Assembly (NCBI RefSeq): GCF_030846775.1
Contig: NZ_CP132910.1
Location: 3,010,001-3,074,000 of the forward strand
Direction of reading: 5' to 3'
Source of the DNA: Geothrix sp. 21YS21S-2
GTDB taxonomy: Bacteria; Acidobacteriota; Holophagae; Holophagales; Holophagaceae
DNA length: 64,000 bases
Shown here: positions 1 through 14,486 of the stretch, in pieces
How the letters are laid out: each line of letters starts with the position of its first letter
How positions within the stretch are numbered: position 1 is the first letter of the stretch
Made by a program: the position numbers and the translations under genes
The notes under the pieces: generated by a model
The model's input: the letters and a program-made list of their open reading frames with translations, nothing else
Told to the model about the DNA's origin: nothing
Databases searched by the model: none

Positions 1-859
1 TCGTCGCCTGGACAGCCATGCCGAACCGGCCGGCCGCCACCGCGCCGTTGAACGCGAACACTGTTGGGGTGAGGAGCTGGAAGATGGCGTAGCCGGCCAT
101 CCAGCTAACGGCAATCCGCCACTGGAAGGGCAGCAGGTCCTTGGCCCAATCGATCCGCGCCCCCACGGGGCTGTGAAGGGCGTTAACCATGCGGGGGCCA
201 CACTTGAGGTAGAGCAGGCTGGCGTTGACCACCACCCCGGAGCCGACCATGACCGAGGCGGACCAGAGCCCCGCCCCCAGCTTCAGGGCCAGGGAGAACG
301 AGACGATGGCAACCGTGGACTGGAACAGACGCGTCAGCGCCAATTCCCGCACGGCCCCCATGCCCTCGGCCATGGCGTTCATCCCCACCATGAACACGGA
401 TGCGGCGGTGGCAAGGCCCAGACCGATCCACGGCCCCAGCCAGACCACGCCGGTGTCCGCAGGGTGGGTGCGGCTGAAGAAGACCACGCCGAAGGGGACG
501 ATGATGAAGACCACCGCGAGCCCCGCGATCCCATACCACTTCATGGCTAGGCGCATCAGCGACCCCAGACGCTGGATGTGGAAATCCTCCCCGCGCCAGA
601 ATTCGCCACTCCAGGCTAGTAGGGCCACTTCGTGCCCGGCCGTCGTCAGGATCACGGTGGACATGCCCATTTCCATCAGGATCTGGAGCGCAATGAGGCT
701 CTGGAAGGCGTAATGGAACCCCTGCTGTGCCGGACTGAGATTGGCAACCACCATGGCCATGGCGACCAGCCACCCCCCCGCGGCCACAAACCGGGCAGAC
801 ATGGCCAGCAAGGCCGTACCGTGGCCCGCCGTCAGCCTTCCCACTCGCTGTATCGTCAT
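1..859 (-). CDS. Polysaccharide flippase-like membrane protein (partial, 3' end outside window)
   Basis: The 286 codons visible are strongly hydrophobic, with about six membrane-spanning stretches. Examples are the segments around VVFIIVPFGVVFF and SVMVGSGVVVNASLLYL. This fits a Wzx/MATE-like oligosaccharide flippase, a family of about 400-480 residues, so roughly a third of the protein lies beyond the left edge. The start at 859 (MTIQRVGRL) is preceded by GGGGAG at a good distance. A run of seven C at 773-779 keeps the frame, so there is no frameshift. It is the last visible gene of the sugar cluster, 58 bp after the epimerase. A role moving lipid-linked repeat units across the inner membrane is inferred from topology and context; no diagnostic motif exists for this family. 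Confidence 0.6.
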   Translation of the reverse strand, partial: MTIQRVGRLTAGHGTALLAMSARFVAAGGWLVAMAMVVANLSPAQQGFHYAFQSLIALQILMEMGMSTVILTTAGHEVALLAWSGEFWRGEDFHIQRLGSLMRLAMKWYGIAGLAVVFIIVPFGVVFFSRTHPADTGVVWLGPWIGLGLATAASVFMVGMNAMAEGMGAVRELALTRLFQSTVAIVSFSLALKLGAGLWSASVMVGSGVVVNASLLYLKCGPRMVNALHSPVGARIDWAKDLLPFQWRIAVSWMAGYAIFQLLTPTVFAFNGAVAAGRFGMAVQAT

Positions 860-917: not shown

Positions 918-2018
918 TCATGTGGCCTGATTCGAAGGATTTAAAAAGGAATTCACAGTCCGCGTGAAGCCATCCACCAGGCCTGTCGTGGGGTTCCAGC
1001 CTAGTGCCCGCAGTTTCCTGATATCCGGAGAGTTGCGGACGATCGGACTTTCGAGATAGCCATGGGAGTGCGGTTGGACCGATACAACAACTCGCTTTTG
1101 GGGTTCAGGGAAAACCCGGACCAAGAGGGCCGCGAGGTCCCGAATGCTGATCTCAGTGTCGGGGTTGCCCACATTGTATGCGGCCCCGGTCGATCCTTTC
1201 AGGAGTACCGTGAAGAAGCCCACCGTGGCATCCGCCAAGTAGCAGAACGGACGAACGGCCAAACCTTCACTCTTCAGCACAAGGTCCTGACCCAGGACGA
1301 TGTTGGAGACGAAATCCGCGAAGACCCGCCCATCGTCCAAGGCCATACCCGGCCCATAGGTATGGAATGGCCTTGCGATCCGGGCGGGGATGCCGAACTG
1401 GTGGGCATAGGCCACACAAAGGGCTTCGCCGGCCCGTTTGCCTTCTCCATAGCAGGCCCGAACGTTCGTGGGGTCCAGATACCCGTAGGCATCCTCGAGG
1501 ATGGGGATCCTGGCGGGGTCCACCTGACCATAAACTTCCCCGGAACTGAAGTAGAGGAAGCCTTCGGTTCTGTCCTCCCTGGCACGCAGCAGCGCGCGGC
1601 GGGTTCCCAGGAGGTTCGCCTCCAGGGTGCCCACCGGGTCACTGCCAAAGAACTTCGGACTGGCTTGGCTGGCGGCATGGATGATGAAATCCATGCGTCC
1701 TTCCAAATTCCAGGGTTCGATGACGTCCTGGCACACCAAGTCCAGGTCGCTCCGTCCGGCGTGATGCCGGAAACGCTCCTGGGCTTTCTTCAGGTTGCGA
1801 ACCAGGCCCACCACACGGACCTTCGCCAGGGTGCGGGTCTCATTAAGCCGCAGAAGCGTTTCCACCAGGTAGGCAGGCAGGAAGCCTCCAGCCCCCGTGA
1901 CAAGGACCGTCTTGCCTGCGAACTGCTCCCAGGGCAGGGAGTTAGCCAGGATCCGGTCCAGGTCCCCCTCCAGGATGGGGTGGCGTGAACCCCGGTTCGG
2001 ATCAGCGCAAGGCGTCAT
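918..2018 (-). CDS. NAD-dependent sugar epimerase/dehydratase (extended SDR)
   Basis: This 366-residue extended short-chain dehydrogenase has an N-terminal Rossmann motif TGAGGFLPAYL. That is a slightly altered GxxGxxG, with Leu-Pro where Ile-Gly is usual. It also has the catalytic Ser region YFSSGEVYG and a Tyr-x3-Lys pair in CYGEGKRAGE. The family acts on NDP-sugars (4,6-dehydratases, 4-epimerases, UDP-xylose synthases). The exact substrate cannot be read from the sequence. The start at 2018 overlaps the end of the aldolase gene by 17 bp; an in-frame start further upstream at 2081 would lie deep inside that gene. It is the penultimate gene of the coupled sugar-acid set and may reduce or epimerise the product of the preceding enzymes, or act in a separate NDP-sugar branch. 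Confidence 0.75.
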   Translation of the reverse strand: MTPCADPNRGSRHPILEGDLDRILANSLPWEQFAGKTVLVTGAGGFLPAYLVETLLRLNETRTLAKVRVVGLVRNLKKAQERFRHHAGRSDLDLVCQDVIEPWNLEGRMDFIIHAASQASPKFFGSDPVGTLEANLLGTRRALLRAREDRTEGFLYFSSGEVYGQVDPARIPILEDAYGYLDPTNVRACYGEGKRAGEALCVAYAHQFGIPARIARPFHTYGPGMALDDGRVFADFVSNIVLGQDLVLKSEGLAVRPFCYLADATVGFFTVLLKGSTGAAYNVGNPDTEISIRDLAALLVRVFPEPQKRVVVSVQPHSHGYLESPIVRNSPDIRKLRALGWNPTTGLVDGFTRTVNSFLNPSNQAT

Positions 2019-2769
2019 GGGCGTCGGTAAGGGTGCTCTTGAATGCGTTGAGGAGGATCTCGGTCTCCACCCGGTAGGCAAGGTATTTCACGCCCAGTTT
2101 CTTCCAATGGGCCAGCCCTTCCGGGGTATCGGTGAAGACACCGACCTCGACGCCCTTGTTGCCACAAAGGGTGATGACCTCCTCCACCGCCTTGACCACC
2201 TCGGGGTGCCAAATCTGGCCGATCAGGCCGAGCGACTGGCTGAGGTCATAGGGACCCACGAAGATCACATCGATTCCCGGCACCTCGATGATCTCGGTCA
2301 GGTGGTCGAGCCCCTCCTTCCCTTCGATCTGGAGGACGAGCAACCGGTTTCGATTGGCCTCGGCGATGTAGTCCTCCTTGGGGATATTGGAGAACTCGGC
2401 GGCCCTCACGAACCGGCACATACCCCGCTCGCCGCCCGGTGCGAACATGCCGTAGGCCACGGCCCGTTCCGCATCTTCCCGACACTTGACATGCGGAACC
2501 TGAATGCCGCCGACGCCCAGATCCAACAGCCACTTGAAATAGGATTCCTGAAGGGCTGGGATTCGGGCGAGGAGCCTTAACCCTCGCCGCTCGGCGGCCA
2601 GGATCAGGGGATAAACGTCCGCGGGAGCGGTAGGGCCGTGTTCCAGATCCAGGATTGCGAAATCGAAACCGGCCATACCCAGCATTTCCACCAACTCGGG
2701 GCGCGGGATGCGCAGGAAGGGGCCAATTCGGTGCGGTTTGGCGGCCAGCCAGGTCTTTGCTTCTTCCAT
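2002..2769 (-). CDS. HpcH/HpaI-family aldolase
   Basis: A 255-residue TIM-barrel aldolase of the HpcH/HpaI (2-keto-3-deoxy acid) family. The N-terminal motif FAILDLEHGP and the later metal-binding segments LQIEGKEGLD and DVIFVGPYDLSQSLG supply the acidic residues used by the class II pyruvate aldolases. Members reversibly join pyruvate to an aldehyde, giving 4-hydroxy-2-keto acids. I chose the start at 2769 because GGAG lies five bases upstream; the ATG at 2787 has no ribosome site. It lies 28 bp after the ThDP enzyme gene and overlaps the epimerase gene. Beside a UxaA-type dehydratase, which also yields 2-keto-3-deoxy acids, it could either make or split such a sugar acid. The direction is not decidable here. 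Confidence 0.8.
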   Translation of the reverse strand: MEEAKTWLAAKPHRIGPFLRIPRPELVEMLGMAGFDFAILDLEHGPTAPADVYPLILAAERRGLRLLARIPALQESYFKWLLDLGVGGIQVPHVKCREDAERAVAYGMFAPGGERGMCRFVRAAEFSNIPKEDYIAEANRNRLLVLQIEGKEGLDHLTEIIEVPGIDVIFVGPYDLSQSLGLIGQIWHPEVVKAVEEVITLCGNKGVEVGVFTDTPEGLAHWKKLGVKYLAYRVETEILLNAFKSTLTDAHDALR

Positions 2770-2797
2770 GGTCACTCCAGGAATCATGAAATCGGGT

Positions 2798-4600
2798 TCA
2801 ATCCAGGGCCTGGCTCTTGGGATGCAGTCCGACCAGCATTTCCTTCCGGAGGACTGCCCTGGGCAGGAAGGGTGCCAGATCCTCGAGCGGGGGTGAGACC
2901 AGGGTTCCGTCGGGCCGAACGGCCAGGGAGAGCTTGGGCCCGAGAATCTGCTCGGGGTCGAGGGAGACTTGGCAGAGTACAGGCCCGGGCGTCGCGAGGG
3001 TCCGGGCGATCATTGCCGACACCTCGGCGGGGTCCGACAGGCGGAGGCTCGGGATCCCGAAAGCTTCCGCCACCTTCGCGAAATCAGGGCAGGTCACGCC
3101 ACTGGCCGAGCCGCTCGCCACCAGATGCTCGCCGAACAGGGCCCGCTGGGTCTGCCGGATCGTCAGGTAGCCGTCGTTGGCGTACAGGAAGATCTTGATG
3201 GGGAGCTGGTGGTGGAAGATGGTCTGGAGTTCCTGGACATTCATCATGGTCGAACCGTCCCCGGCCAGGAGGATCACGCGGCCCCCTTTGCCGAAGGCCG
3301 CACCAATGGCGCCTGGAAGGCCGAACCCCATTTCGCCCAGGCCGGTGGAGGTGACCAGCCGTTGACCGGCTTTGAGGGTGATGGCCTGATGGGTGGTGGT
3401 GAGGGCGGCCCCCATGTCCGTGACGACAACATCGTCTTCGGCCAGCTCTTCGACCAGCGCTTGCGCGAACCGGTAGGAATTGAGACGCCCGGTCGACTGC
3501 ACATGGAGTTCCGGTTCCACAAGGGGGTAGCGCCCCTCCCAGTCGCAGCACTGGGCCAACCAGGAGGCCGGCTCCGGCTGGGCGGGGATGGACTCCCGGA
3601 TCGCATCCAGGAACTGCCCGGCATCCGCGTGGATCTTGAGGAACCGGTCGCTCTCGGGCAGTTTGCCGAGTTCCGTGCCATCGATGTCCACCACGGCGAC
3701 CTGGGCCCCGCGCGCGAACTCGCTCCATTCATAGCCAACCTGGGGAATGGCCAGCCGGGTGCCGATGGCGATCACCAGATCCGAATTCTGCAGGACGAAG
3801 TTCCCGCAGCGCTGCCCATAGACACCGGCATGGCCGAAGTGGCGGGGATGGGAGGAAGGCACCATGTCCGCCCCGTTCCAGGAGGTCAGGAAGGGGAAGG
3901 GCAGATGGTCAAGGAACGCGTCCAGCTTCCCCAGGGCGCCCGCCAGCCGGATCCCGTGACCCAGCCAAAGGACCGGCCGCTTTGCGTTGCCGATGAGTTC
4001 CCGCACCCGCGCCATGTGCGGGCCGAAATCCACCGCCTCGGCAACGGGACGGGCATACCCCTCCAGGAGGTTCTCGTCGACCTGCGCAGCCTGGATATCC
4101 GTGGGGATGTCCAGCCACACGGGGCCGGGGCGACCCGAACTGGCCAGATGCCAAGCCTTTTCCAGGTGCCACCGGATCGTGGACGGGTCGGTGATCATTG
4201 CGCTGTATTTGGTGATACCCGAAACCATCTTCGCAATGTTCGTGCCCTGCACGCCCCACATCCGCAGCGGGTTGTCCTCACGGGCCCAGGCACTCTTCTC
4301 CTGGCCCGAGATTATCAAGCAGGGAAAGGAATCCGCCCAGGCGTCCAGGACGCCAGAAATGGCATTCACGGCACCGGGACCGCCGGTGGTCATCATCACC
4401 CCCATCCGGTCCGAAAGCCGGTGGTAGGCGATGGCGGCCATAACCCCCGCCTGTTCGTGGTGGGGGCATACGTAGGTAAGGTCCGGATGGTCATCCACCC
4501 CCTCCAGAAGGTGGACGTTGCCCGCTCCCGAAATGGCGAAGATATGCCGCGCCCCGTGGGCGGCGAGAAACGAGGCCACGTAGCTGCTGAGTTTCATCAT
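2798..4600 (-). CDS. ThDP-dependent acetolactate-synthase-like enzyme
   Basis: A 600-residue enzyme with the three-domain layout of acetolactate synthase/pyruvate decarboxylase. The N-terminal PYR domain has the catalytic Glu in CPHHEQAGVMA. The central domain contains LIISGQEKSAW and PVWLDIPTD. The C-terminal PP domain has the ThDP/Mg motif GDGSTMMN followed by YANDGYLTIRQTQ. The start is within ATGATGA at the end of the nucleotidyltransferase gene, with AAGGA upstream, so translation is coupled. Relatives in polysaccharide loci include YerE, which adds a two-carbon unit from pyruvate to a CDP-4-keto-3,6-dideoxyhexose to make yersiniose. Because rfbFGH lie upstream, that role is possible. 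Decarboxylation or carboligation of a 2-keto acid made by neighbouring enzymes is equally possible. It is unlikely to be the housekeeping IlvB, given the context. Confidence 0.8.
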   Translation of the reverse strand: MMKLSSYVASFLAAHGARHIFAISGAGNVHLLEGVDDHPDLTYVCPHHEQAGVMAAIAYHRLSDRMGVMMTTGGPGAVNAISGVLDAWADSFPCLIISGQEKSAWAREDNPLRMWGVQGTNIAKMVSGITKYSAMITDPSTIRWHLEKAWHLASSGRPGPVWLDIPTDIQAAQVDENLLEGYARPVAEAVDFGPHMARVRELIGNAKRPVLWLGHGIRLAGALGKLDAFLDHLPFPFLTSWNGADMVPSSHPRHFGHAGVYGQRCGNFVLQNSDLVIAIGTRLAIPQVGYEWSEFARGAQVAVVDIDGTELGKLPESDRFLKIHADAGQFLDAIRESIPAQPEPASWLAQCCDWEGRYPLVEPELHVQSTGRLNSYRFAQALVEELAEDDVVVTDMGAALTTTHQAITLKAGQRLVTSTGLGEMGFGLPGAIGAAFGKGGRVILLAGDGSTMMNVQELQTIFHHQLPIKIFLYANDGYLTIRQTQRALFGEHLVASGSASGVTCPDFAKVAEAFGIPSLRLSDPAEVSAMIARTLATPGPVLCQVSLDPEQILGPKLSLAVRPDGTLVSPPLEDLAPFLPRAVLRKEMLVGLHPKSQALD

Positions 4601-5358
4601 CCGTTGTCCTTGGCGGCGAGCAGCGCCTCCAGATAGCCGAGGTCCCTTTCGCAATCCAGATAGTGCCACGGCCCTTCATAGGGGAAGGCCATCATCTGGC
4701 CATCCTTGACCAGCTCCCCGAGGACCGCATCCTCAAGCACCTTGCTGGCGGGGTTGCCCAGATAGGCTGGATTGAAGAGCTCCTGGCGGAATGCGTAGAA
4801 ACCACCATTGATGTAATCATTCTGGATGACGGGGTTGTCTGAGAACCCACGCAGGAGATTCTCCCCCCGCTTCATCCCCAGGATCCGGAACCGGGTCGGG
4901 AGCCGCGCCGCCAGGCACGTCGCGATGAGCCCATGGTCCAGGTGGAACCGGGCAAGTTCACCCAGCTTGACGTGGCTGAGCGTATCGCTGTAAGTGACCC
5001 AGAACCAGGGCACGTCCCGAAGGAGAGGCTGAACCTGCTTCACCCGTTCCGCGGTTGGCGTGGCAAGTCCGGTATCCACCAGGTCCACCGTCCCCTCGAG
5101 GCCCGGCCCGGCAAGCTCGAAGTGGAGGCCGTCCCCCTTGCCGACTGTGGCGAAAAGGGTTGAATAGAGATCCATCTGGTAGCCACAGCATAGGATGAAG
5201 TGCCTGGACCCGGCCTGGACGAACGTGCGGATCAAGTGGAGGATCATGGCCTCCCCTCTGACTTCAACCAGCCCTTTGGACCGCCGCGTGATACTCCCAT
5301 CCACGAAGACGCCGTTGCCCCCGCACAGGATGACGACAGGAATTCCACTCAGGTTCAT
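4597..5358 (-). CDS. Divergent sugar-1-phosphate nucleotidyltransferase
   Basis: A 253-residue protein that aligns end to end with glucose-1-phosphate cytidylyltransferases such as the RfbF encoded at 11370-12134. Matching blocks are VVILCGGNG, FILCCGYQMDLY, VDTGLATPT, YINGGFYAF and GPWHYLDCERDLGYLE. Key residues differ. The GxGTRL loop is replaced by GNGVFV, so the usual catalytic Arg is missing. The TYGDGVxD block reads TYSDTLSHV, keeping one Asp and losing the second acidic position. A Lys is retained in RRSKGLVEV. The start at 5358 has GGGAG seven bases upstream and overlaps the phosphatase stop in an ATGA. It probably activates an unusual sugar or alditol phosphate; changed nucleotide preference or reduced activity cannot be excluded. 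Confidence 0.7.
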   Translation of the reverse strand: MNLSGIPVVILCGGNGVFVDGSITRRSKGLVEVRGEAMILHLIRTFVQAGSRHFILCCGYQMDLYSTLFATVGKGDGLHFELAGPGLEGTVDLVDTGLATPTAERVKQVQPLLRDVPWFWVTYSDTLSHVKLGELARFHLDHGLIATCLAARLPTRFRILGMKRGENLLRGFSDNPVIQNDYINGGFYAFRQELFNPAYLGNPASKVLEDAVLGELVKDGQMMAFPYEGPWHYLDCERDLGYLEALLAAKDNG

Positions 5359-6161
5359 GATTTCGCTCCCAAGGTAGAAGGATCCGGTAGAACAAGTGCC
5401 ATCAGTGGTTCCAGGACACCTGGCGCAGTGACAAGGTAGTCGAGGGTGGCATGCCCGGGGTGGAACCGCGTCCAGACTTCGCAGCCGGCGCGGGAAGCGA
5501 TGGCCAAGCCGCCACCCACGTCCCAAAGTTTTGCGTTGAATCCGTAGGCACCCTGGAGCCGGCCACATGCGGTAAGGCAGAGCAGTGCCGCGGCGGAACC
5601 CAGGCGCAGGCACCCGCGACTGCTCTCGTTGACCCGGGCGAAGATCTCGTAATGGGGGGGGCCGCCCGGCTGCATTCGACCTGGCAGGCTCACGCCGATC
5701 AGGGCATCCTGCAGGGTGCTGGGCTGGGCCTTCAGGTGCTTACCGTTGAGGAAGGCCGCCTCGTTGCCGTGAGTGAAGAAGATTTCCTTGAAGGCCGGCA
5801 TGGAGACCGCGCCCACGCCGAAGCCGGTGCCGTCCCAGAGCCCCACGGAAACGGCGTAGTAGGGCATGCCGCTGGCGAAGTTCACCGTGCCGTCGATGGG
5901 GTCCACCACCCAGAAGGGCGCGTCCATGGGGGGAAGTTCAGCATCTGGCGTGTAGGCCTCCTCGCTGAGGATCGGGTAGGCCGTTTCCATCAGGACTGCA
6001 CAGATATGCTTTTCGATCATCGTGTCGAGGTTGGTGACGATATCCCGCATGGAGCCCTTGGTGCCGGTCACCACGCGCTCGATGGGCTCCTCCATGAGTT
6101 CCTCGCTGGAGGCCACCGACCGGAGAGCGGCCAGGGACTCCCTTTCAAACTGGATGGTCAT
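5355..6161 (-). CDS. Inositol-monophosphatase-family sugar phosphatase
   Basis: A 268-residue member of the Mg-dependent IMPase/FBPase/CysQ superfamily. The metal-binding residues are visible: Glu pair in ILSEEAYTPD, the signature DPIDGTVNFASG, and the C-terminal WDVGGGLAIASRAG. Family members remove phosphate from inositol, sugar or nucleoside phosphates. The start at 6161 has AAAGGAG upstream and overlaps the dehydrogenase stop as ATGA. The gene in turn overlaps the nucleotidyltransferase gene. In a pathway with a dehydrogenase upstream and a nucleotidyltransferase downstream, a role as sugar-phosphate phosphatase is likely (compare the phosphatase steps in Kdo or heptose synthesis), but the substrate is not evident. 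Confidence 0.8.
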   Translation of the reverse strand: MTIQFERESLAALRSVASSEELMEEPIERVVTGTKGSMRDIVTNLDTMIEKHICAVLMETAYPILSEEAYTPDAELPPMDAPFWVVDPIDGTVNFASGMPYYAVSVGLWDGTGFGVGAVSMPAFKEIFFTHGNEAAFLNGKHLKAQPSTLQDALIGVSLPGRMQPGGPPHYEIFARVNESSRGCLRLGSAAALLCLTACGRLQGAYGFNAKLWDVGGGLAIASRAGCEVWTRFHPGHATLDYLVTAPGVLEPLMALVLPDPSTLGAKS

Positions 6162-7291
6162 GCGAGCTCTCCTTTGGGGACATTCAAATTCTCGAGGCGC
6201 GGGAGGATGATGGGCAGCTGCTCGCGCAAGATGACCTCCAGGGCCTCCCCTGGCCTCAGGCTCAGGATGTGGGAGATGAAGGTCGCCGGGGAAAGGGCCT
6301 TCCTCATGAACCCCAGGTGTCGGTCGGCGTCCGCGTCGTCGGCGAACAGGAGGGCGCTGGCAATGCCGGCCAAGAGATTGTGGGGGATGAAGCCGCTCGC
6401 GAGGCAGATCTGGGCCGCTCCAAGCAGGCGCCCATCCGACTCCAGTTTGCGGAGCGGCTCGCGGGCGACCCGGCTGATGGGGTCGCACAGCAGCTCGTTG
6501 CGGAAACGGGCCAGTTCCTTGGCCGCGTACCATTCGAGGAAGGGGTGGGGAATCTCCCAGCGGAGCTTGAGGCTGTTGAGCATTTCCATCATCGCTCCGG
6601 CGACGATGGCGTCGATTCGGGGGATGGCCATGGACTCGTGGACATAGCGCACCCCGGCCAGGGCGCCCAGGTAGGCGGCGACGCAGTGGGGCGTATTGTG
6701 CAGAAAGAGTTTCGCCGTCCACTGGGTGTGGAGCAGCTCATGGGTTGACAGGGTCTTGAAGTCGCCGGGGAGATCCCCCACGGCCTCATCGACGAACAGG
6801 ACCCCGTCTTCGGAAATGACGGACAGGGAGTCCTTGGCCAGCAGGTGGTCGGGAGCAGAATTGGACGTGATGACATCCGGAACCGCGAAATAGACTTTGG
6901 CCAGACCGGAGGAGGCCTTGACCGCGTTAACGGTGGCCGGGTCGTTCTCGCACAGGATTATTGGGCAGTCGTAGCCCTTGACTAGGCTGGCGACCATCGC
7001 GGCGTGCCTCGGACCGACATTGATGAAAACGGCCAAGGGGTCGGGGTGACGAGCAGCGTCGAAGGTGTCAGGGTAGTAGGCCGCCTCAACAGGCACGGTC
7101 ATGGCTTCGAGCTTCCCGTTGCGCGCCCGGTACGTCTCGTACCTGCCGCGATCCTGCATCGCCTGGATGATGGCCGGGGCCTTGTCCACGAATACGAACC
7201 GGCACCCGGGGAAGCACCAGGGCAGGTATCCCCGCCCGATGGCCCCAGCTCCAATGATTAAGATCTCCCGTGTCGAGGATCCAATGGTCAT
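6158..7291 (-). CDS. Mannitol-1-phosphate/altronate-type polyol dehydrogenase
   Basis: A 377-residue member of the mannitol dehydrogenase (long-chain polyol) family. It has an N-terminal Rossmann motif IIGAGAIGRGYL, the family-typical central ILCENDPATVNAV, and the C-terminal catalytic helix region AKLFLHNTPHCVAAYLGALAG. The length matches MtlD (about 380) better than UxaB (about 480). The family includes UxaB (tagaturonate reductase), which acts immediately before altronate dehydratase in hexuronate catabolism, and a UxaA-type gene precedes this one here. The start at 7291 has GGAGAG five bases upstream and overlaps the UxaA stop as ATGA. It is likely a keto-sugar (acid or phosphate) reductase feeding or using the neighbouring dehydratase. 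Confidence 0.75.
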   Translation of the reverse strand: MTIGSSTREILIIGAGAIGRGYLPWCFPGCRFVFVDKAPAIIQAMQDRGRYETYRARNGKLEAMTVPVEAAYYPDTFDAARHPDPLAVFINVGPRHAAMVASLVKGYDCPIILCENDPATVNAVKASSGLAKVYFAVPDVITSNSAPDHLLAKDSLSVISEDGVLFVDEAVGDLPGDFKTLSTHELLHTQWTAKLFLHNTPHCVAAYLGALAGVRYVHESMAIPRIDAIVAGAMMEMLNSLKLRWEIPHPFLEWYAAKELARFRNELLCDPISRVAREPLRKLESDGRLLGAAQICLASGFIPHNLLAGIASALLFADDADADRHLGFMRKALSPATFISHILSLRPGEALEVILREQLPIILPRLENLNVPKGELA

Positions 7292-8832
7292 AAGGTCTCT
7301 CCGATCGCCCATGGCACAAATTCTTCCCAACCGAGGCCCAGCCGTTCGCTGGAGGTGGTCTCCCCGCTCGCGACCCGGATGAGTTGGTGATAGATCTCCG
7401 CACCCACCTGGGCCGTCTCCCCATGCTCCACCACCCGGCCGGCATCAAAATCGATATCCCCCGCCAGACGCGCTGCCAGGGAGCTATTAGTCGCGATCTT
7501 CAGGGTCGGCGCCTGGGCGCACCCATAGACGGATCCCCTCCCCGTGGTGAAGGCCACAAGATTGCAACCGCCTGCGACCAGACCGGTCACGGAAACGGGG
7601 TCAAAACCCGGCGTGTTCATCAGGACGAACCCAGGCCCCATCACGGGCAGGGCGTAATCCACCACCTGCGTCAGGGGGCTGGACCCGGACTTGGCAACCG
7701 CGCCCAGGCTCTTCTCGACGATCGTCGTGATGCCCCCACGGATATTTCCGGGGGAGAGGTTGTCGTTCAGGGTGACGCCGTGGCGCTGGGAGTAGGCCCG
7801 CCACCAGTCGAAGACCCGGAGCAGGTCCTCCCGGACCTGGGGGCTGGCTGCCCGCTGAATGAGCAGGCCTTCCGCTCCGTGGCACTCCGGAATTTCCGCC
7901 AGGGCGACTGTGCCTCCCTTGAAGGCCAGGATATCGCTGACCACCCCGAGGGCCGGGTTGGCGGTAAGACCGCTGAACGCGTCACTGCCGCCGCAATTGA
8001 GCGCAAGCCTCAGATCGCTGACGGGCAGTTCCTCCCGTTCGAGAACCGGCAGATGGTCCAGCATTTCCGCCACCAGCTCGATCCCCTTCGCCACCGCGGG
8101 CCCGGTTCCGCCACACTCCTGGATGTCCATGCGTTCCAGTGGAAAATCTTCCCAGGATGCATCGCCGCTCCTGGACGCGCAGATGCTCTGGAAGGTCGTT
8201 CCCTCGCAACCCAGGCCGATTACGACCGCTCCGACCACGTTGGGGTGGAAGATGGAACCTGCGAGGGTGCGGTTGAGAGTTTGGTAAGCACCACCACCGA
8301 TTGTCTGTGCGCAGCCGCTGCCATGGGTCAAGGGAATGATCCCGTGGATACCCCGGGCCCGGAGATCCTGACCCTGGAAATGGCGGCAGACCAGTTTGAC
8401 CACCGTGGCCGAGCAATTGACCGTGGCCGCAACTACGATGTAGTTCCTCGTGCCGTTGGGCCTCCCCTTTCGCCGGTATCCAAGGTAGGTTCCCGGGAGG
8501 TCGGCCCAGCCGGACTCCTTGGCGGATGTGATTGGCACCGAGGTTTCCCGGAAATGATCCTCGGGCATGGCGGCGTTGTGCACATGAACATGCTCGCCGG
8601 CCTGGATCGGCCTGGTGGCAACGGCGATGGGCATTCCATATTTCAGGATGGGTTCCCCCACCCCGACGGCGCGCACGGCTATTTTGTGGCCGGACGGGAT
8701 GGCCATGGCAACAACGCCCCTGAGGTCCCCGCTGGTCCAAGGGTCCCCCGTTTCCAGCCCCTCGGGGCGGATCACGACGGCAACATTATCGAGTGGATTC
8801 AGTTGAACCAAATCCGAAATTTCATTGAGCAT
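7288..8832 (-). CDS. UxaA-family altronate/galactarate-type dehydratase
   Basis: A 514-residue protein with an N-terminal SAF-type domain (about residues 10-90) and a C-terminal UxaA hydro-lyase domain. Recognisable blocks are LTHGSGCAQTIGG, VVIGLGCEGTTFQ, LNCGGSDAFSG and FTTGRGSVYGCAQAPTLKIATNS. Conserved Cys residues are those expected for the metal-dependent dehydratase. Known members convert D-altronate to 2-keto-3-deoxygluconate or dehydrate galactarate. The start at 8832 (MLNEISDL) has AGGAG five bases upstream. It lies 43 bp after rfbH and heads the ATGA-coupled subset. A catabolic enzyme inside a polysaccharide cluster is unusual and suggests a 2-keto-3-deoxy sugar acid is made here. 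Confidence 0.85.
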   Translation of the reverse strand: MLNEISDLVQLNPLDNVAVVIRPEGLETGDPWTSGDLRGVVAMAIPSGHKIAVRAVGVGEPILKYGMPIAVATRPIQAGEHVHVHNAAMPEDHFRETSVPITSAKESGWADLPGTYLGYRRKGRPNGTRNYIVVAATVNCSATVVKLVCRHFQGQDLRARGIHGIIPLTHGSGCAQTIGGGAYQTLNRTLAGSIFHPNVVGAVVIGLGCEGTTFQSICASRSGDASWEDFPLERMDIQECGGTGPAVAKGIELVAEMLDHLPVLEREELPVSDLRLALNCGGSDAFSGLTANPALGVVSDILAFKGGTVALAEIPECHGAEGLLIQRAASPQVREDLLRVFDWWRAYSQRHGVTLNDNLSPGNIRGGITTIVEKSLGAVAKSGSSPLTQVVDYALPVMGPGFVLMNTPGFDPVSVTGLVAGGCNLVAFTTGRGSVYGCAQAPTLKIATNSSLAARLAGDIDFDAGRVVEHGETAQVGAEIYHQLIRVASGETTSSERLGLGWEEFVPWAIGETL

Positions 8833-8875
8833 AATCACTCCTGGCCCAGTGCTCGGACGTGCTTGGATGGCCTGC

Positions 8876-10285
8876 CTAGATTCGCCCAAAAGCCCTTCGG
8901 ACAGTCGCAATGATATGGTCAAGGTGTTCCCGCCGCAAACCGGGGTAGGTACCCACGAAAATCGAATCGTTCATGATCCGATCCGCTCCAGCCAAGTCGC
9001 CTACAACCCTGAAGGCGCGGCCACCGCTGTCGCTGGCAAGCTGTACGAAGGCGGGCTGCCTGACCAGATTCCCTCCGAAAAGCATGCGATTGCCGATCCT
9101 GGCCTGGTCGAGGGCGCAGGCCAGGCCCGTCCGGGTGACAGGGCTGCCGGGACGCACCAGCATCATGAAGCCGAACCAGCTGGGGGCGGTCACGGGCTTC
9201 CCGGGGGTCCACTGGAAGCCGCTTTCGCTCCATCCGTTCGCATGGGTGGGCAGGGTGAAATCAATGACATCATCAAGGTCCATCAGCCCGTGCCGCAGGT
9301 AGGCCCAGTTGTCGATCCGGCTCTGGATGAAGGCCGGCAGCTTCTTGAGCTGCTGGCGACCGATGGCGGCCTGGGGATCGAGGGGTTTCAGGTTGTACCC
9401 GAGGTGGCTGTATATATATTTGTGATCGTAGCCCTGGGGGAGATCTCCCAGCTGCCATTCGAAGCGGCGCTTGCAGGTGTTGTCCTTGCCGGAAGGACAC
9501 CAGCAGTCCCGTCCCCAGTCGCGGATGCTCTCGGCCACCAGCTTGAGCAGGGGTTCAGTCCTGACGTTCACGGCCCCCCCTTCGCCAAGCGTTAGGTGGT
9601 GGGGCGGATAGAAGCTCTGGGTCGAGAGATCGCCAAAGGTGCCCGTCAGGGCCTCCCCGTAGCGGCTGCCCAGGCTGTCGCAATTGTCCTCGATGAGCCA
9701 GAGGCCCTTCTCCTTGCAGAACCGGACAACTTCACCCAGATCGAAGGGGTTGCCCAGGGTATGGGCGATCATCACGGCCTTGGTCTTTCCTGGGACGTAG
9801 GCGTCCTCGAGGCACTCCACCCGGACATTGCCCGTAAGGGGATCGTTGTCCACGAAGACAGGGATCGTCTGGCACTGGATCATCGGTGCGACGGTGGTTG
9901 GGAATCCTGCGGCCACGGTGATGACCTCGTCCCCCGGCTGGATCCGGCGCTCCCCCAGCTTGTGGCTGGTCAGGGCCGACAGGGCCACCAGATTGGCGGA
10001 GCTTCCGGAATTCACGAGCAGGGTCCTGGAGACCCCGAGCATCTGCGCGAATTCATTCTCGAAGGCCGCCCCTTCCGGACCGAGGGTAAGCCAGAAATCG
10101 AGCATCGAGGATACGCCGGCGGCGACCTCCTCCTCGTCGAATACCCGGCCGGCATAGGGGACGGTGGTTTCGCCAGGGACGAAGGGCTTTGGGGCTTCGC
10201 GAAGACGGATGAGTTCCCGGGTGCGTTCCAGGATTTCCTGTCGGAGTTGGGCAAGTCGTTCGGTCATAAATTCATCCCTGTTCAT
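8876..10285 (-). CDS. rfbH: CDP-4-keto-6-deoxyglucose 3-dehydrase (E1, RfbH/AscC-type)
   Basis: A 469-residue DegT/DnrJ/EryC1-fold protein. The segment SFYPPHHLTLGEGGA has His where sugar aminotransferases have the PLP-binding Lys. That is the hallmark of the E1 3-dehydrase, which uses PMP rather than an internal aldimine. The following DWGRDCWCPSGKDNTCKRRF supplies the cysteines of the [2Fe-2S] cluster. The reaction removes the C3 hydroxyl of CDP-4-keto-6-deoxyglucose, with electrons from a partner reductase (E3, AscD/DdhD). No such reductase is visible in the cluster. The start at 10285 overlaps the rfbG stop as ATGA; an internal ATG at 10267 is an alternative. Confidence 0.92.
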   Translation of the reverse strand: MNRDEFMTERLAQLRQEILERTRELIRLREAPKPFVPGETTVPYAGRVFDEEEVAAGVSSMLDFWLTLGPEGAAFENEFAQMLGVSRTLLVNSGSSANLVALSALTSHKLGERRIQPGDEVITVAAGFPTTVAPMIQCQTIPVFVDNDPLTGNVRVECLEDAYVPGKTKAVMIAHTLGNPFDLGEVVRFCKEKGLWLIEDNCDSLGSRYGEALTGTFGDLSTQSFYPPHHLTLGEGGAVNVRTEPLLKLVAESIRDWGRDCWCPSGKDNTCKRRFEWQLGDLPQGYDHKYIYSHLGYNLKPLDPQAAIGRQQLKKLPAFIQSRIDNWAYLRHGLMDLDDVIDFTLPTHANGWSESGFQWTPGKPVTAPSWFGFMMLVRPGSPVTRTGLACALDQARIGNRMLFGGNLVRQPAFVQLASDSGGRAFRVVGDLAGADRIMNDSIFVGTYPGLRREHLDHIIATVRRAFGRI

Positions 10286-11370
10286 CGGGTCCAAGGCAGC
10301 CCGAGGGAGGCGGCCGCTGCCTCGAAGGCATCGATTTGTTGCAGAGTCAATTCCTGGGCCACAAGACCCTCGTGATGCCCCCGGTACCAGGCCACGACCT
10401 GGCGCACGGTCTCGGAGAAGTCCCAGGTCCCATGCCATTGAAGAAGGGCATGGGCCTTGGAGCAGTCGAGTTTCAGGAGGCCGGCTTCGTGAGGCTGGTT
10501 GGCCTCCTGCTGTACCTGGACCTCCCCGGCGCCCCAACTCGCCACCAGCGCGTCAGCCAAGGCAAGGACGGTGACGACCGATGCCTCGCTGGGGCCAAAG
10601 TTCCAGCTTTCCGCAAAACGCCAGCCGTCCTCTCCGAACAGGCGGGCGCCCAAATCCAAGTAGCCGGAAAGGGGTTCGAGCACATGCTGCCAGGGCCGGG
10701 TCGCCCCCGGGTTACGCAAGGTCAGGGGTCTGCCGGCCCGGATGGCGCGAACGAAATCGACCACGATCCGTTCAGGGGCCCAGTCGCCTCCCCCGATCAC
10801 ATTGCCGGCCCGAGCGGAGGCCAGGCGGAGGCCTCCACGATTCTGGAAAAAGCTCTTGCGCCAGCTGGCCACGGCCAGTTCCACGGCGCCCTTGCTCGAA
10901 CTGTAGGGGTCGTGACCCCCCAGGGGGTCCGATTCCCGGTACCCCCAAAATTGTTCAACGTTTTCATAGCATTTGTCGGAGGTGACGACCACGCACGCTC
11001 GTACCCCCGGGGTCAGGCGTATGGCCTCCAGCAGGTTGACCGTGCCTCCCACGTTGGTATCCCAGGTGCACTTGGGATCCTGGTAGCTGGGTCGCACCAG
11101 GGCCTGGGCAGCGAGGTGGAAGACGATCTCGGGCCGGGCCTCTTCCACGATCAGGCGAACCGCCTGTACGTCCCGGATATCGGCGACGTGGTGCCGGATC
11201 TGGTCCTCCAGGCCCAACAGATCGAAAAGGCTTGGGGTGGTCTCTGGGGCGAGGGCCAGGCCCGTGACTTCGGCCCCGAGGCTCAACAGCCACCGGGTCA
11301 GCCAGGCGCCTTTGAACCCGGTGTGCCCGGTGATGAGCACGCGTCGTCCCTGATAGATATTCTGAAACAT
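10282..11370 (-). CDS. rfbG: CDP-glucose 4,6-dehydratase
   Basis: A 362-residue extended SDR. The N-terminal motif GHTGFKGAWLTRWL is characteristic of CDP-glucose 4,6-dehydratases. The catalytic region DPYSSSKGAVELAVASW gives Tyr-x3-Lys. The enzyme converts CDP-D-glucose to CDP-4-keto-6-deoxy-D-glucose, the substrate of RfbH downstream. The start at 11370 ([11 protein letters not shown]) overlaps the rfbF stop as ATGA. Upstream in-frame Met codons are inside rfbF and less likely. It forms a coupled rfbF-rfbG-rfbH block. Confidence 0.92.
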   Translation of the reverse strand: MFQNIYQGRRVLITGHTGFKGAWLTRWLLSLGAEVTGLALAPETTPSLFDLLGLEDQIRHHVADIRDVQAVRLIVEEARPEIVFHLAAQALVRPSYQDPKCTWDTNVGGTVNLLEAIRLTPGVRACVVVTSDKCYENVEQFWGYRESDPLGGHDPYSSSKGAVELAVASWRKSFFQNRGGLRLASARAGNVIGGGDWAPERIVVDFVRAIRAGRPLTLRNPGATRPWQHVLEPLSGYLDLGARLFGEDGWRFAESWNFGPSEASVVTVLALADALVASWGAGEVQVQQEANQPHEAGLLKLDCSKAHALLQWHGTWDFSETVRQVVAWYRGHHEGLVAQELTLQQIDAFEAAAASLGLPWTR

Positions 11371-12134
11371 CACCACACCTTCCATGGGGCCTTGCCTGAG
11401 GCCCACAGTTCCTCTAGGAGAATTTTGTCACGAAGGGTATCCATCGGTTGCCAGAAACCTCGGTGCTTGAACGCGGAGAGCTGGTTCTGGCGGGACAGTT
11501 CCTCCAAGGGCTTGCGCTCCCATATGGTGGCGTCCCCTTCGATGAGGTCCAGTACCTTGGGCGAGCAGACGAAGAAACCGCCATTGATCCAGGCGCTGTC
11601 TCCCTTGGGCTTTTCCTGGAATGCCGCGATGCGGGAGCCGTTGAGGTCCAAGGCCCCAAAGCGGCCCGGCGGCTGGACTGCGGTCAACGTGCAAAGGGTC
11701 TTCTCTTCCGCGTGAAAGGCCAAGAGGGCCTTGATGTCCACATCCGCGACCCCGTCCCCGTAGGTCAGGCAGAAGTCCTCATCGAGGTACGGGGCGATCC
11801 GCTTGATCCGGCCGCCGGTCATGGTCGCCTCGCCGGTATCCACAAGAGTCACTCGCCAGGGCTCGGCGGACTGGTGGTGCACCTCCATCTTGTTGTCCCG
11901 CATGTTGAACGTGACGTCGGACGTGTGCAGGAAATAGTTGGAAAAATATTCCTTGATCACATAGCCCTTGAAGCCGCAGCAGACGATGAAATCGTTGATC
12001 CCGTGGGCAGAATAGGTCTTCATGATGTGCCAGAGGATGGGCTTGCCCCCGATCTCGATCATGGGTTTTGGCCTGATCTGGGTTTCCTCACTTATCCTGG
12101 TGCCCATGCCGCCCGCAAGGATGACCGCCTTCAT
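11370..12134 (-). CDS. rfbF: Glucose-1-phosphate cytidylyltransferase
   Basis: A 254-residue nucleotidyltransferase of the RfbF type. It shows the complete [19 protein letters not shown] signature, the [16 protein letters not shown] block, [10 protein letters not shown] for metal binding, and WINGGFFV plus [12 protein letters not shown] near the C-terminus. It makes CDP-glucose from CTP and glucose-1-phosphate, the first step of the CDP-dideoxyhexose route completed by the next two genes. The start at 12134 has GGAGAAA upstream and overlaps the rfbB stop as ATGA. The protein is a useful intact reference for the divergent paralogue at 4597-5358. Confidence 0.93.
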
Positions 12135-13138
12135 AGGGTTTCTCCGTAAGCTTCCAAATGCCCCTGGCCGCGAAGGTACCAGGCGACCGTAGCCTTGAGC
12201 CCGTCCTGGAATGAATGCTCCGGCCTCCATCCCAGTTCGGTCTGGATCTTGGTGGAATCAATTGCGTACCGGCGATCGTGCCCGGCCCGGTCCTGCACGA
12301 ACGTCTTCAAACCGCGGCTGGTGCCCTGGGAACGGCCAAGCTGCAGGTCCACCGTGTCGCAAAGGATATCGATCAGATCGAGGTTCTTCTGCTCGTTCTC
12401 GCCACCGACACAGTACGTCTCCCCGGCCACACCGGAAAGCATCGCCGTTTCCAGGGCCGAGCAGTGGTCCTCCACGAACAGCCAGTCCCGGATGTTCTGG
12501 CCATCACCGTAGATCGGGATCGGCTCGTTGGCGACCATCCGGGCAATAACCAGGGGGATCAGTTTTTCCGGGTGCTGTCTGGGGCCATAATTGTTGGAAC
12601 AATTTGTTGTTATCACGTCCATAGCATAGGTGTGGTGGTAGGCGCGCACCAGGTGGTCACTGCCGGCCTTGCTGGCACTGTACGGACTGTTCGGGGCATA
12701 GGCCATCGTTTCGTGGAATTTCCCTATCTCACCAAGGGAACCATAAACTTCGTCGGTGCTTACATGCAGGAAACGGCAGCCCTTCTGCCCCGCCCACGCC
12801 TGTCGGGCCGCCTCCAGCATGCTGAAGGTGCCAACCATGTTGGTCCGGATGAACTCGGCTGGGCCGGAAATGCTTCGATCCACATGGCTTTCTGCTGCCA
12901 AATGGAAAATCCTGACCACGGCGTTCCGTTCGATCACGTGGCGGACAAGTTCCAGGTTGGTGATGTCGCCCTGGATCAGGTCCACGCCGGACAGGCCCTC
13001 GATCTGGGAACGATCGGAAGCGTAGGTCAGCTTGTCCAAAACCACGACCCGGTCGCCGGGGTGGTTCCGGACCCAGCGATGGACGAGGTTGCTGCCGATG
13101 AAGCCAGCACCGCCGGTAATGAGGATGGTCTCGGTCAA
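12131..13138 (-). CDS. rfbB: dTDP-glucose 4,6-dehydratase (TTG start)
   Basis: A 335-residue extended SDR with [15 protein letters not shown] at the N-terminus, [23 protein letters not shown] and [14 protein letters not shown] (Tyr-x3-Lys), all typical of RmlB. It turns dTDP-glucose into dTDP-4-keto-6-deoxyglucose for L-rhamnose synthesis. No ATG fits the N-terminus. A TTG at 13138 is preceded by AAAAGGAG at the right distance and places [12 protein letters not shown] at the start, so TTG is the likely initiation codon. It lies 11 bp after rfbD. Confidence 0.93.
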
Positions 13139-13149
13139 TGCCTCTCCTT

Positions 13150-13986
13150 TTAGATCTCTGGAAATTGGATAACTTCGCCCAGCGCATCCGCCCAGGCCGG
13201 CATGAGGTCCGTGCCCAGGGTGCCCCGGCGAGTTCCATCCAGCACGGAGTAAGCCGGGCGCGGCGCGGGTAGGGGATAGTCCCGGGTCCCGCATGGTTTC
13301 AGGTCCACTTGAAGGCCCGACTGGCGGAAGATTTCCGCAGCGAACCCGTGCCAGGAGGTTTTCCCTGTGCAGGTGGCGTGAACCAGGCCTTCCCAGCCCT
13401 CCTCGACCGCGACCCTCATCTGACGGGCCAGGGCCCGGCAGGAGGTAGGGGAGCCGAACTGGTCATCCACCACCCGAAGGCTGCGCCCCTGGGCCGCGCA
13501 GGCCAGCATTGTGCGGAGGAAGTTCTTGCCCCAGGCATCGTAAAGCCAGGCCGTGCGCAGAATGAGGTGCCTGGGGGCCAGGGCTGCCTTCTGTTCACCA
13601 AGCAGCTTGGACTTTCCGTATTCCGACCGGGGACCCGTGGGGTCGTCCTCCCGGTACGGGCGGTCCCCCGTGCCATCGAAGACATAGTCGGTGCTGATCT
13701 GCACGAGAAGGGCGTTCACCTCACCGCACCCCCTGGCGAGCCAGCCGACGGCTTCGCCATTTACCAGTCGGGCCAGCCCAGGTTCCGTCTCGCACCGGTC
13801 CACCTGCGTGAAAGCGGCGCAATTGACGACGACATCGGGACGGAAGCCTCGCAGCGCCTTCAGAACGGAGGCCTCGGAACACAGATCCAGGCTGGATTCC
13901 TCGGGAAGGATGAGATCATGGCCCGACCAGGTCTTCTGGATGGCATACGCCAGTTGGCCCGCGGCCCCAGTCACCAGGATGTTCAT
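13150..13986 (-). CDS. rfbD: dTDP-4-dehydrorhamnose reductase
   Basis: A 278-residue SDR matching RmlD. Motifs are the N-terminal ILVTGAAGQLAYA, then VVNCAAFTQVDRCE, QISTDYVFDGT and SEYGKSKLLGE (Tyr-x3-Lys). It performs the last step of dTDP-L-rhamnose synthesis, the NAD(P)H-dependent reduction at C4. Its start overlaps the rfbC stop as ATGA and its stop lies 11 bp before rfbB, in the order rfbA-rfbC-rfbD-rfbB. Length and motifs are normal for the family. Confidence 0.93.
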   Translation of the reverse strand: MNILVTGAAGQLAYAIQKTWSGHDLILPEESSLDLCSEASVLKALRGFRPDVVVNCAAFTQVDRCETEPGLARLVNGEAVGWLARGCGEVNALLVQISTDYVFDGTGDRPYREDDPTGPRSEYGKSKLLGEQKAALAPRHLILRTAWLYDAWGKNFLRTMLACAAQGRSLRVVDDQFGSPTSCRALARQMRVAVEEGWEGLVHATCTGKTSWHGFAAEIFRQSGLQVDLKPCGTRDYPLPAPRPAYSVLDGTRRGTLGTDLMPAWADALGEVIQFPEI

Positions 13987-14486
13987 CAGAGCTGCGCCCT
14001 TCGGGCCCGCTCATCCAGTACGAAGGGGCTGGCCGGGTCATCCTCGTGCCGGATCTCATCCACGGGCGCCTTCTTTCCGTCTCCCATGAACAGCCTGTCC
14101 GGACAGTTGATGACGAGGCCCGGTTCGTGGCTGATGCACCGGTAGCAGTGGACGACCCCTTTGGGGATGATCGCCGAACCTGGATTGTTGAGGCCCATAG
14201 CCACTTCCATCCGGTTGCCGAAGGTGGGAGATGAGGGCCGGTTGTCCCAAAGGGTGAGCTTGAAATCGCCAGGCCCGACCCAGCAGAACAGGTCCGCCTG
14301 GTCAACATGCTCATGGGGGCCGCGCAGCACACCCGGATGCGTGACGCTCACGTAGCACATCTCGGGGCGGAACCAGGCGGGCAGTTCGTCGTGCCTGAAG
14401 ATCTCGGCCAGCCAGCCGCGCTCGTCGATGAATTTGCGGAATGGGGTAATCACGACACCTTCGATGATTCCCCGGGTGAAGGTCAT
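13986..14486 (-). CDS. rfbC: dTDP-4-dehydrorhamnose 3,5-epimerase family protein
   Basis: A 166-residue cupin of the RmlC family. The N-terminal block GVVITPFRKFIDERGWLAEI, the central VLRGPHEHVDQADLF with the catalytic-type His, and DEIRHEDDPASPF near the C-terminus align with RmlC. The sequence is divergent: the family more often reads RGLHYQ in the central block. Its place between rfbA and rfbD supports the 3,5-epimerase role in dTDP-L-rhamnose synthesis. The start at 14486 has GAGGAGG immediately upstream and overlaps the rfbA stop by one base. Confidence 0.85.
   Translation of the reverse strand: MTFTRGIIEGVVITPFRKFIDERGWLAEIFRHDELPAWFRPEMCYVSVTHPGVLRGPHEHVDQADLFCWVGPGDFKLTLWDNRPSSPTFGNRMEVAMGLNNPGSAIIPKGVVHCYRCISHEPGLVINCPDRLFMGDGKKAPVDEIRHEDDPASPFVLDERARRAQL

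Follow-up and report, generated by a model that had tools for sequence, protein, structure and literature searches.

A candidate pathway to a branched, higher-carbon surface sugar around a YerE-like carboligase in Geothrix sp. 21YS21S-2

What might a bacterium make with a sugar-acid dehydratase, a mannitol-type dehydrogenase, a phosphatase, a divergent nucleotidyltransferase, a thiamine diphosphate (ThDP) enzyme, an aldolase and a short-chain dehydrogenase/reductase (SDR) that are encoded in a row inside a polysaccharide locus? The question is raised by a 64,000-nucleotide stretch of the Geothrix sp. 21YS21S-2 genome (NZ_CP132910.1, positions 3,010,001 to 3,074,000), called the window below, whose first letter is position 1. 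Open reading frames (ORFs) and Pfam and NCBIfam matches show that the seven-gene set is real and lies on the minus strand, from 8832 down to 918. They bear out the arrangement described in an earlier, sequence-only reading of the window: ATGA overlaps at four consecutive junctions (dehydratase/dehydrogenase, dehydrogenase/phosphatase, phosphatase/nucleotidyltransferase and nucleotidyltransferase/ThDP enzyme) and a 17-base-pair (bp) overlap between the aldolase and SDR genes; a 10-bp gap separates the ThDP enzyme and aldolase genes. That reading had the seven genes right and overlooked RfbF, RfbG and RfbH, into which the run extends directly upstream. The RfbH gene stops at 8876, which leaves 43 bp to the start of the dehydratase gene; the RfbG/RfbH junction is likewise ATGA, provided that RfbH starts at 10285. 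In a rough gene call, possible 4-bp overlaps occur in 2 of 22 same-strand pairs window-wide, a count that gives only a weak background because several genes of the seven-gene run were mis-called by it. We consider it on balance probable that the ten genes from rfbF to the SDR gene constitute one pathway to a branched, higher-carbon deoxy sugar, activated with cytidine diphosphate (CDP) and destined for O-antigen or capsule.

The argument starts from the ThDP enzyme (2798..4600, minus strand, as are all genes of the run). Its best match among PDB chains is 8rph (JanthE), with 598 bits and 48% identity over the whole protein, and the next chain, an acetolactate synthase, scores 249 bits. A maximum-likelihood tree with 107 rows joins the window enzyme to JanthE and to the carboligases of two other loci, L138 and L142, in one clade with a Shimodaira–Hasegawa-like approximate likelihood ratio test (SH-aLRT) value of 100. 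The tree was computed by a quick method without bootstrap from a set that retained near-copies and had one acetolactate-synthase-like outgroup; the YerE and ErwE sequences are not in it, and L066, which has a broken ThDP frame, was left out. The structure scores and the tree both group the enzyme with characterised YerE-like enzymes and not with acetolactate synthases, which strongly suggests a YerE-like carboligase that would add keto-acid-derived acyl groups to ketones. JanthE, from Janthinobacterium sp. HH01, also has the stretches GAGN, NPLRxWGVQG and SPPLEDL in common with it.

JanthE is described as a YerE-like enzyme that couples 2-oxo acids and ketones to tertiary alcohols; 4-hydroxy-2-oxovalerate is among its donors when benzaldehyde serves as the acceptor, and the same source states that the physiological substrates have yet to be identified (PMC12188165). 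YerE itself transfers activated acetaldehyde from pyruvate to CDP-3,6-dideoxy-4-keto-glucose, a step toward the branched sugar yersiniose A, and prefers pyruvate; ErwE prefers 4-hydroxy-2-oxo acids (PMC12247030, a review). Two side observations concern YerE-like genes elsewhere. At about 9974-11788 of L066 such a gene lies in two open frames, reflecting a frameshift, an internal stop or a sequencing error. In a congener of the window's genome (G001, locus L038), the YerE-like carboligase is another one, with 41% identity, and has a NeuB-like neighbour; branched-sugar loci may therefore differ between related strains.

The likely acceptor is suggested by the three upstream genes, all of which pass curated NCBIfam cut-offs: the glucose-1-phosphate cytidylyltransferase RfbF/DdhA (11370..12134, start taken as the ATG at 12134; TIGR02623, 465.6 bits against a cut-off of 300), the CDP-glucose 4,6-dehydratase RfbG/DdhB (10282..11376, first in-frame ATG at 11370; TIGR02622, 472.9 against 278) and the pyridoxal phosphate-dependent 3-dehydrase RfbH/DdhC (8876..10285; NF011936, 637 against 423). 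In RfbH, read by eye, a His replaces the aminotransferase Lys (SFYPPHHLT), and we presume the usual meaning of this motif. The three enzymes, acting as steps 1, 2 and 3, yield CDP-4-keto-3,6-dideoxy-D-glucose; by their family assignment, those of the window most likely produce a CDP-4-keto-3,6-dideoxyglucose-type acceptor. Carboligation onto such a CDP-keto-sugar is likely.

These findings bear directly on the product that the sequence-only reading had proposed, a 2-keto-3-deoxy sugar acid that is made, dephosphorylated, nucleotide-activated and itself put into the polysaccharide in the manner of 3-deoxy-D-manno-octulosonic acid (Kdo). The dehydratase and aldolase families do act on 2-keto-3-deoxy acids, and a phosphatase and a nucleotidyltransferase-like gene are both in the set, but the carboligase and the adjacent RfbF/G/H would be left unexplained, and the nucleotidyltransferase is a degenerate member of the RfbF family, not of the KdsB/NeuA type. 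This second nucleotidyltransferase (NT2, 4597..5358) is a divergent RfbF paralogue that scores 114 bits against TIGR02623 (cut-off 300) and 95 bits against PDB 1tzf, and that has no Pfam match at E 1e-3. All 56 RfbF proteins in an alignment have a Glu-Lys pair where NT2 has Asp-Asn. In a comparison confined to RfbF and RmlA of the window, NT2 also has Phe in place of the GxGTR Arg; two Asp residues and the Lys of the PKP motif are retained. Because the Glu-Lys pair and the GxGTR Arg are missing, normal sugar-1-phosphate activation by NT2 is doubtful, and the protein has probably ceased to work as a regular sugar-1-phosphate cytidylyltransferase. A scan of the ten proteins encoded at 918-12140, to which this search was confined, revealed no CMP-transferase of the KdsB/NeuA type. 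The CDP-sugar acceptor genes upstream, the clade of the carboligase and the residues missing from NT2 speak against activation of the acid, and we regard the Kdo-like fate as very improbable. The 2-keto-3-deoxy acid is best read as a donor that would be consumed, not as a nucleotide-activated product. The other elements of the earlier proposal are supported, namely that these genes of a polysaccharide locus serve biosynthesis together, that their product is a branched sugar and that a 2-keto-(3-deoxy) acid is an intermediate.

The source of such a donor can be approached through the neighbourhoods of YerE-like carboligases elsewhere. We compared 105 places with such a gene: 19 from the host phylum, 80 from one species-genome scan (among the matches listed) and six from other sampled groups. 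They are held in 106 fetched pieces of 4.2-21.9 kilobases (kb), L138 and L139 being one place in two pieces. The species-genome scan used two patterns, one of which the window enzyme fits; members of the clade with a CDG motif, JanthE, L138 and L142, match neither pattern, and for this reason the scan probably passed over other enzymes of the JanthE kind. At least one of RfbF, RfbG and RfbH scores above 100 bits in 68 of the 106 pieces and all three do so in 50; for the 67 pieces of at least 17 kb, these counts are 47 and 40.

Clustering of neighbour ORFs, with one representative per family checked against Pfam and NCBIfam, yielded four families as possible makers of a 2-oxo acid: NeuB-like proteins (35 of 105 places), HMGL-like aldolases (18), other HpcH/HpaI-family proteins (15) and DmpG-like aldolases (6, each accompanied by an acetaldehyde dehydrogenase). 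Exactly one of these donor families is present in 74 places and two in none, whereas random placement gave a mean of 17.5 overlaps and a minimum of 7 in 20,000 trials. When three near-copy places were dropped (L032/L061 on the same contig, L035/L037 with identical DNA around the gene, and L025/L026 with proteins 95% alike), exactly one family was found in 71/102 places and two in 0/102 (random mean 16.8, minimum 5). The donor genes lie on the carboligase strand in all 74 places, and on the carboligase tree the donor labels group together, with 26 changes over all labels including ‘none’ compared to a shuffled mean of 57.3 (0 of 200 shufflings as low). NeuB-like genes (35 of 105 places, or 32 of 102 with near-copies dropped), whose presence might have reflected a coincidental sialic-acid pathway, are within 2 kb of the carboligase gene in 33 of these 35 places and always on the same strand. 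This proximity and strand agreement, together with the absence of a CMP-transferase from the 25 commonest of 60 neighbour families (104 neighbour ORFs, at most four per locus), led us to reject coincidence.

The two sister loci of the JanthE clade illustrate the pattern. In G1010 (L139/L138), RfbF, RfbG, a DegT-family enzyme, a GT2 glycosyltransferase, an SDR, an acetaldehyde dehydrogenase and a DmpG-like aldolase accompany the carboligase; the acylating acetaldehyde dehydrogenase passes its cut-off, and the DegT-family enzyme has, by eye, a His at the usual Lys place. G804 (L142) encodes RfbF, RfbG, RfbH, an acetaldehyde-dehydrogenase-family protein, a DmpG-like aldolase, an SDR and the carboligase. 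Both aldolases were assigned as relatives of the L112 protein, whose score exceeds the cut-off for 4-hydroxy-2-oxovalerate aldolase. A pair of acetaldehyde dehydrogenase and DmpG-like aldolase can make 4-hydroxy-2-oxopentanoate, which is among the donors accepted by JanthE in vitro.

By analogy, the window's HpaI/GarL-type class II pyruvate aldolase (2002..2787; PF03328, 105.7 bits) may fill the place of the sister-locus aldolase, and would make the same class of compound. Its nearest solved structure is GarL (1dxe, 131 bits), and its His, Arg, Gln-x-Glu and Asp line up with those of 1dxe, with presumed metal and catalytic roles; it stays below the equivalog cut-offs for HpaI (146 against 369 bits) and GarL (140 against 407 bits). 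That the donor is made by this aldolase seems to us more likely than not. Adjacent to it is the extended SDR (918..2018; PF01370, 136.3 bits); an SDR of the same family is found near the carboligase in sister loci, and a 262-bit match adjoins the ThDP enzyme in L121.

The remaining genes of the set are harder to place. The dehydratase (7288..8832; PF20629, 303.6 bits; PF04295, 110.9 bits) is of the GarD/UxaA type, as the sequence-only reading had it, with GarD as its best match (NCBIfam, 323 bits against an equivalog cut-off of 731; PDB 6u7l, 242 bits). UxaA was not fairly compared, because the sole altronate hydrolase chain found is a 105-residue piece. The dehydrogenase (6158..7291) is a short member, with 377 residues, of the mannitol dehydrogenase family (PF08125, 83.5 bits), and carries KLFLHNTPH, which we take to be the Lys-Asn-His signature of that family. 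The proposed kinship with UxaB is weak: the best models are mannitol-1-phosphate (5-)dehydrogenases (NF002652, 109.5 bits, cut-off 356; PDB 3h2z, 73 bits), compared to 23 bits for the tagaturonate reductase model (cut-off 359, residues 192-321 only). The IMPase-family phosphatase (5355..6161; PF00459, 137.6 bits) shows, by eye, a DPIDGT motif that is presumably the IMPase metal motif. A haloacid dehalogenase (HAD) phosphatase present in 21 of the 105 places is a plausible counterpart of it.

The nearest solved structures of the dehydratase and aldolase, GarD and GarL, could also point to a catabolic hexuronate or aldarate module, as in galactarate breakdown by E. coli, that came to lie in the locus by chance. 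Unlike the E. coli enzymes, however, those of the window are encoded in a polysaccharide run, embedded with overlaps between RfbH and a flippase gene, and score well under the GarD and GarL cut-offs; the carboligase, in turn, belongs to a biosynthetic clade. The genome contains no second match to the dehydrogenase protein and no GD_AH_C domain besides that of the dehydratase, which argues against plain hexuronate catabolism, although other hexuronate genes were not searched for. We consider a chance catabolic module extremely unlikely.

Considering these observations, we propose the following pathway. RfbF, RfbG and RfbH would produce CDP-4-keto-3,6-dideoxy-D-glucose. The aldolase would condense pyruvate with an aldehyde to a 4-hydroxy-2-oxo (2-keto-3-deoxy) acid, as the sister loci and the one-donor-enzyme pattern suggest. 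The ThDP enzyme would decarboxylate this 2-oxo acid and add the acyl group to the C-4 ketone, creating a tertiary alcohol, and after carboligation the SDR might reduce the new ketone as a ketoreductase, or act as an epimerase. The dehydrogenase, phosphatase and dehydratase could conceivably prepare a precursor derived from a sugar acid, either the 2-keto-3-deoxy acid itself (from an aldonate that is dephosphorylated and dehydrated) or the aldehyde for the aldolase. A role of these three enzymes in donor supply has, in our estimate, somewhat less than an even chance.

Several points weigh against this proposal. (i) The ThDP-binding motif is GDG in the window enzyme and CDG in JanthE, L138 and L142, so that the use of donor or acceptor may differ. 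The review describes GDG as the canonical form of the motif (PMC12247030), which bars a claim of detailed orthology to JanthE and does not bar a YerE-like function. (ii) RfbH normally requires a reductase of the RfbI/DdhD type; inspection by eye of the genes at 1-16.2 kb and of L044, a piece to the left of the window start, the only parts of the genome looked at for it, showed none. (iii) The window aldolase and the HpcH-family proteins found at other YerE loci belong to different subfamilies and were not joined by phmmer at E 1e-5. (iv) Under the one-donor-enzyme pattern the GarD-like dehydratase is odd, because it is a second potential donor maker beside the aldolase. (v) The exclusivity count draws on loci that are related to one another and on truncated contigs, whose ends may conceal further genes (15 of the 106 pieces fall short of 10 kb), and it is uncorrected for phylogeny. 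(vi) With window queries at E 1e-5 and the best query taken per ORF, the dehydratase, dehydrogenase and NT2 are matched in 0/105 places, and the IMPase in a single one, L088, by a weak match of 59 bits at a distance of about 6 kb to the carboligase gene; since no other locus with the first three was found, the comparison cannot test their role. The co-occurrence of all seven families, which the sequence-only reading had named as a check, is thus partial: the carboligase, a donor maker, the SDR and RfbF/G/H recur, and the other families do not, apart from the one weak phosphatase match. (vii) No donor family is present in 31 of the 105 places. The commonest family among their scanned neighbours is an epimerase-type SDR (15 of 86 ORFs), there is no aldolase among the 25 families listed of 73 (86 of 110 candidate neighbours scanned), and the carboligases of these places may use pyruvate.

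The donor-less places leave room for a different partition of the run, into two separate sugars. The ThDP enzyme would then use pyruvate, with the SDR finishing a yersiniose-like product; the dehydrogenase, phosphatase and NT2 would make a CDP-polyol or another sugar phosphate, and the dehydratase and aldolase would serve elsewhere. Pairs of such a dehydrogenase and a nucleotidyltransferase make CDP-polyols in some capsules, and the nearest relatives of the window dehydrogenase are mannitol-1-phosphate dehydrogenases. However, the genes are coupled in a single run, NT2 is devoid of residues conserved for sugar-phosphate activation, the aldolase adjoins the carboligase like the donor-making genes of the sister loci, and a scan of eight neighbouring proteins, three of which matched no family, turned up no polyol-phosphate transferase. 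Two separate sugars are therefore unlikely.

A single branched sugar, our preferred reading, has precedents among known systems. In the yersiniose A locus, RfbF/G/H, YerE and a reductase are encoded together, and the window likewise combines RfbF/G/H, a YerE-like carboligase and an oxidoreductase. The window locus differs in that it adds an aldolase and four further genes, whereas YerE is described as preferring pyruvate (PMC12247030). The same source describes for ErwE, on the way to erwiniose, a 4-hydroxy-2-oxo acid donor and CDP-4-keto-3,6-dideoxyglucose, as proposed here; this likeness is by description, the ErwE sequence and gene cluster not being part of our comparison. Within the JanthE clade, the two other members whose gene context is known, L138 and L142, have an acetaldehyde dehydrogenase and a DmpG-like aldolase instead, and none of the window's HpcH, GarD, dehydrogenase, IMPase and NT2 proteins is matched there. 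The window locus is most likely a variant of the known YerE-type branched-sugar pathway with a mix of helper enzymes that was not found together in the other loci examined.

Genome searches agree with the rarity of this mix. The dehydrogenase query matched 3 of 60 relatives, own genome included, one of 18 chosen genomes (E 1.6e-4) and, at E 1e-15, 5 of 149 genomes with 31-36% identity; in another sample it matched 0/198 at E 1e-15, which is uninformative as there was no positive control. Six loci around dehydrogenase matches, five from the sample of 149 genomes and one from the relatives, contain no other gene of the cassette, though some are on short contigs (3.5-19.9 kb). The ThDP query matched 19 of 396 genomes of the host phylum (own genome included, E 1e-120); in other samples it matched 4/399 (E 1e-140), 2/274 and 3/240 (both at E 1e-145), with the own genome among each, and 3/257 at E 1e-150. 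Viral contigs had no relatives of the dehydrogenase or NT2, the only two queries used, and phage records gave seven ThDP matches of 30-31% identity. On plasmids there was no ThDP match at E 1e-100; dehydrogenase matches had at most about 40% identity and were mostly annotated as mannitol-1-phosphate dehydrogenase or unannotated, and NT2 matches had about 32% identity among the matches listed. The four plasmid regions examined, three of them annotated, are each an ordinary cytidylyltransferase-type locus. Among the papers searched, none combines four of the six families of the finding and none, by title and opening of the abstract, treats the donor pattern, which is not proof that the pattern is unpublished; the review, in its available part, mentions aldolases only as alternative carboligation catalysts (PMC12247030).

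The surroundings of the run are those of a polysaccharide locus. Downstream of the SDR gene, an open frame at 2..859 on the minus strand appears, by eye from hydrophobicity and position, to encode a Wzx-like flippase; it continues past the window edge into L044 (genome bases 2997001-3010500, left of the window start and overlapping it), where the continuation has no Pfam match. The locus goes on in L044 with a GT2 glycosyltransferase, a hexapeptide transferase and an arylsulfotransferase, recognised by Pfam, and with GMD/Fcl-like (GDP-mannose-dehydratase, fucose-synthase) genes, recognised by eye. Further upstream of RfbF, rmlABCD-like genes, a Wzz-like gene (Pfam 23 bits, slightly below its cut-off) and rpoC were identified by eye. 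The RmlC-like gene at 13986-14498 encodes 170 residues and has a modest family score (PF00908, 48 bits, cut-off 27). Among the other loci, a single run in L050 of Bradyrhizobium canariense (NZ_VSST01000022.1) encodes RfbF, RfbG, an HpcH-family protein, an AroB-like protein, an SDR and a YerE-like carboligase. AroB-like genes are present in 12 of the 105 places, the family representative, L109, best matching TIGR04425 below its cut-off; such genes could serve carbocyclic sugars such as bradyrhizose.

Taken further, the neighbour pattern leads to a tentative generalisation in which each YerE-like carboligase is paired with at most one dedicated 2-keto-acid maker (a sialate-synthase-like enzyme, or an aldolase of the HMGL/DmpG or HpcH kind) that sets the branch, and the window locus adds a further donor module. 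In it, the GarD-like dehydratase, the mannitol-phosphate-type dehydrogenase, the phosphatase and the HpaI aldolase would convert a sugar acid to the donor, such that two sugars would be fused carbon to carbon into a branched sugar with some ten or eleven carbons and perhaps a carboxyl group at one end. The one-donor-enzyme pattern is the most useful outcome of this analysis because it makes the question of the natural donors directly testable: it predicts the donors of YerE-like carboligases from genome context and names specific substrates. If true, it would explain how bacteria make branched, higher-carbon surface sugars, and would provide new pairs of carbon-carbon bond-forming enzymes for synthesis.

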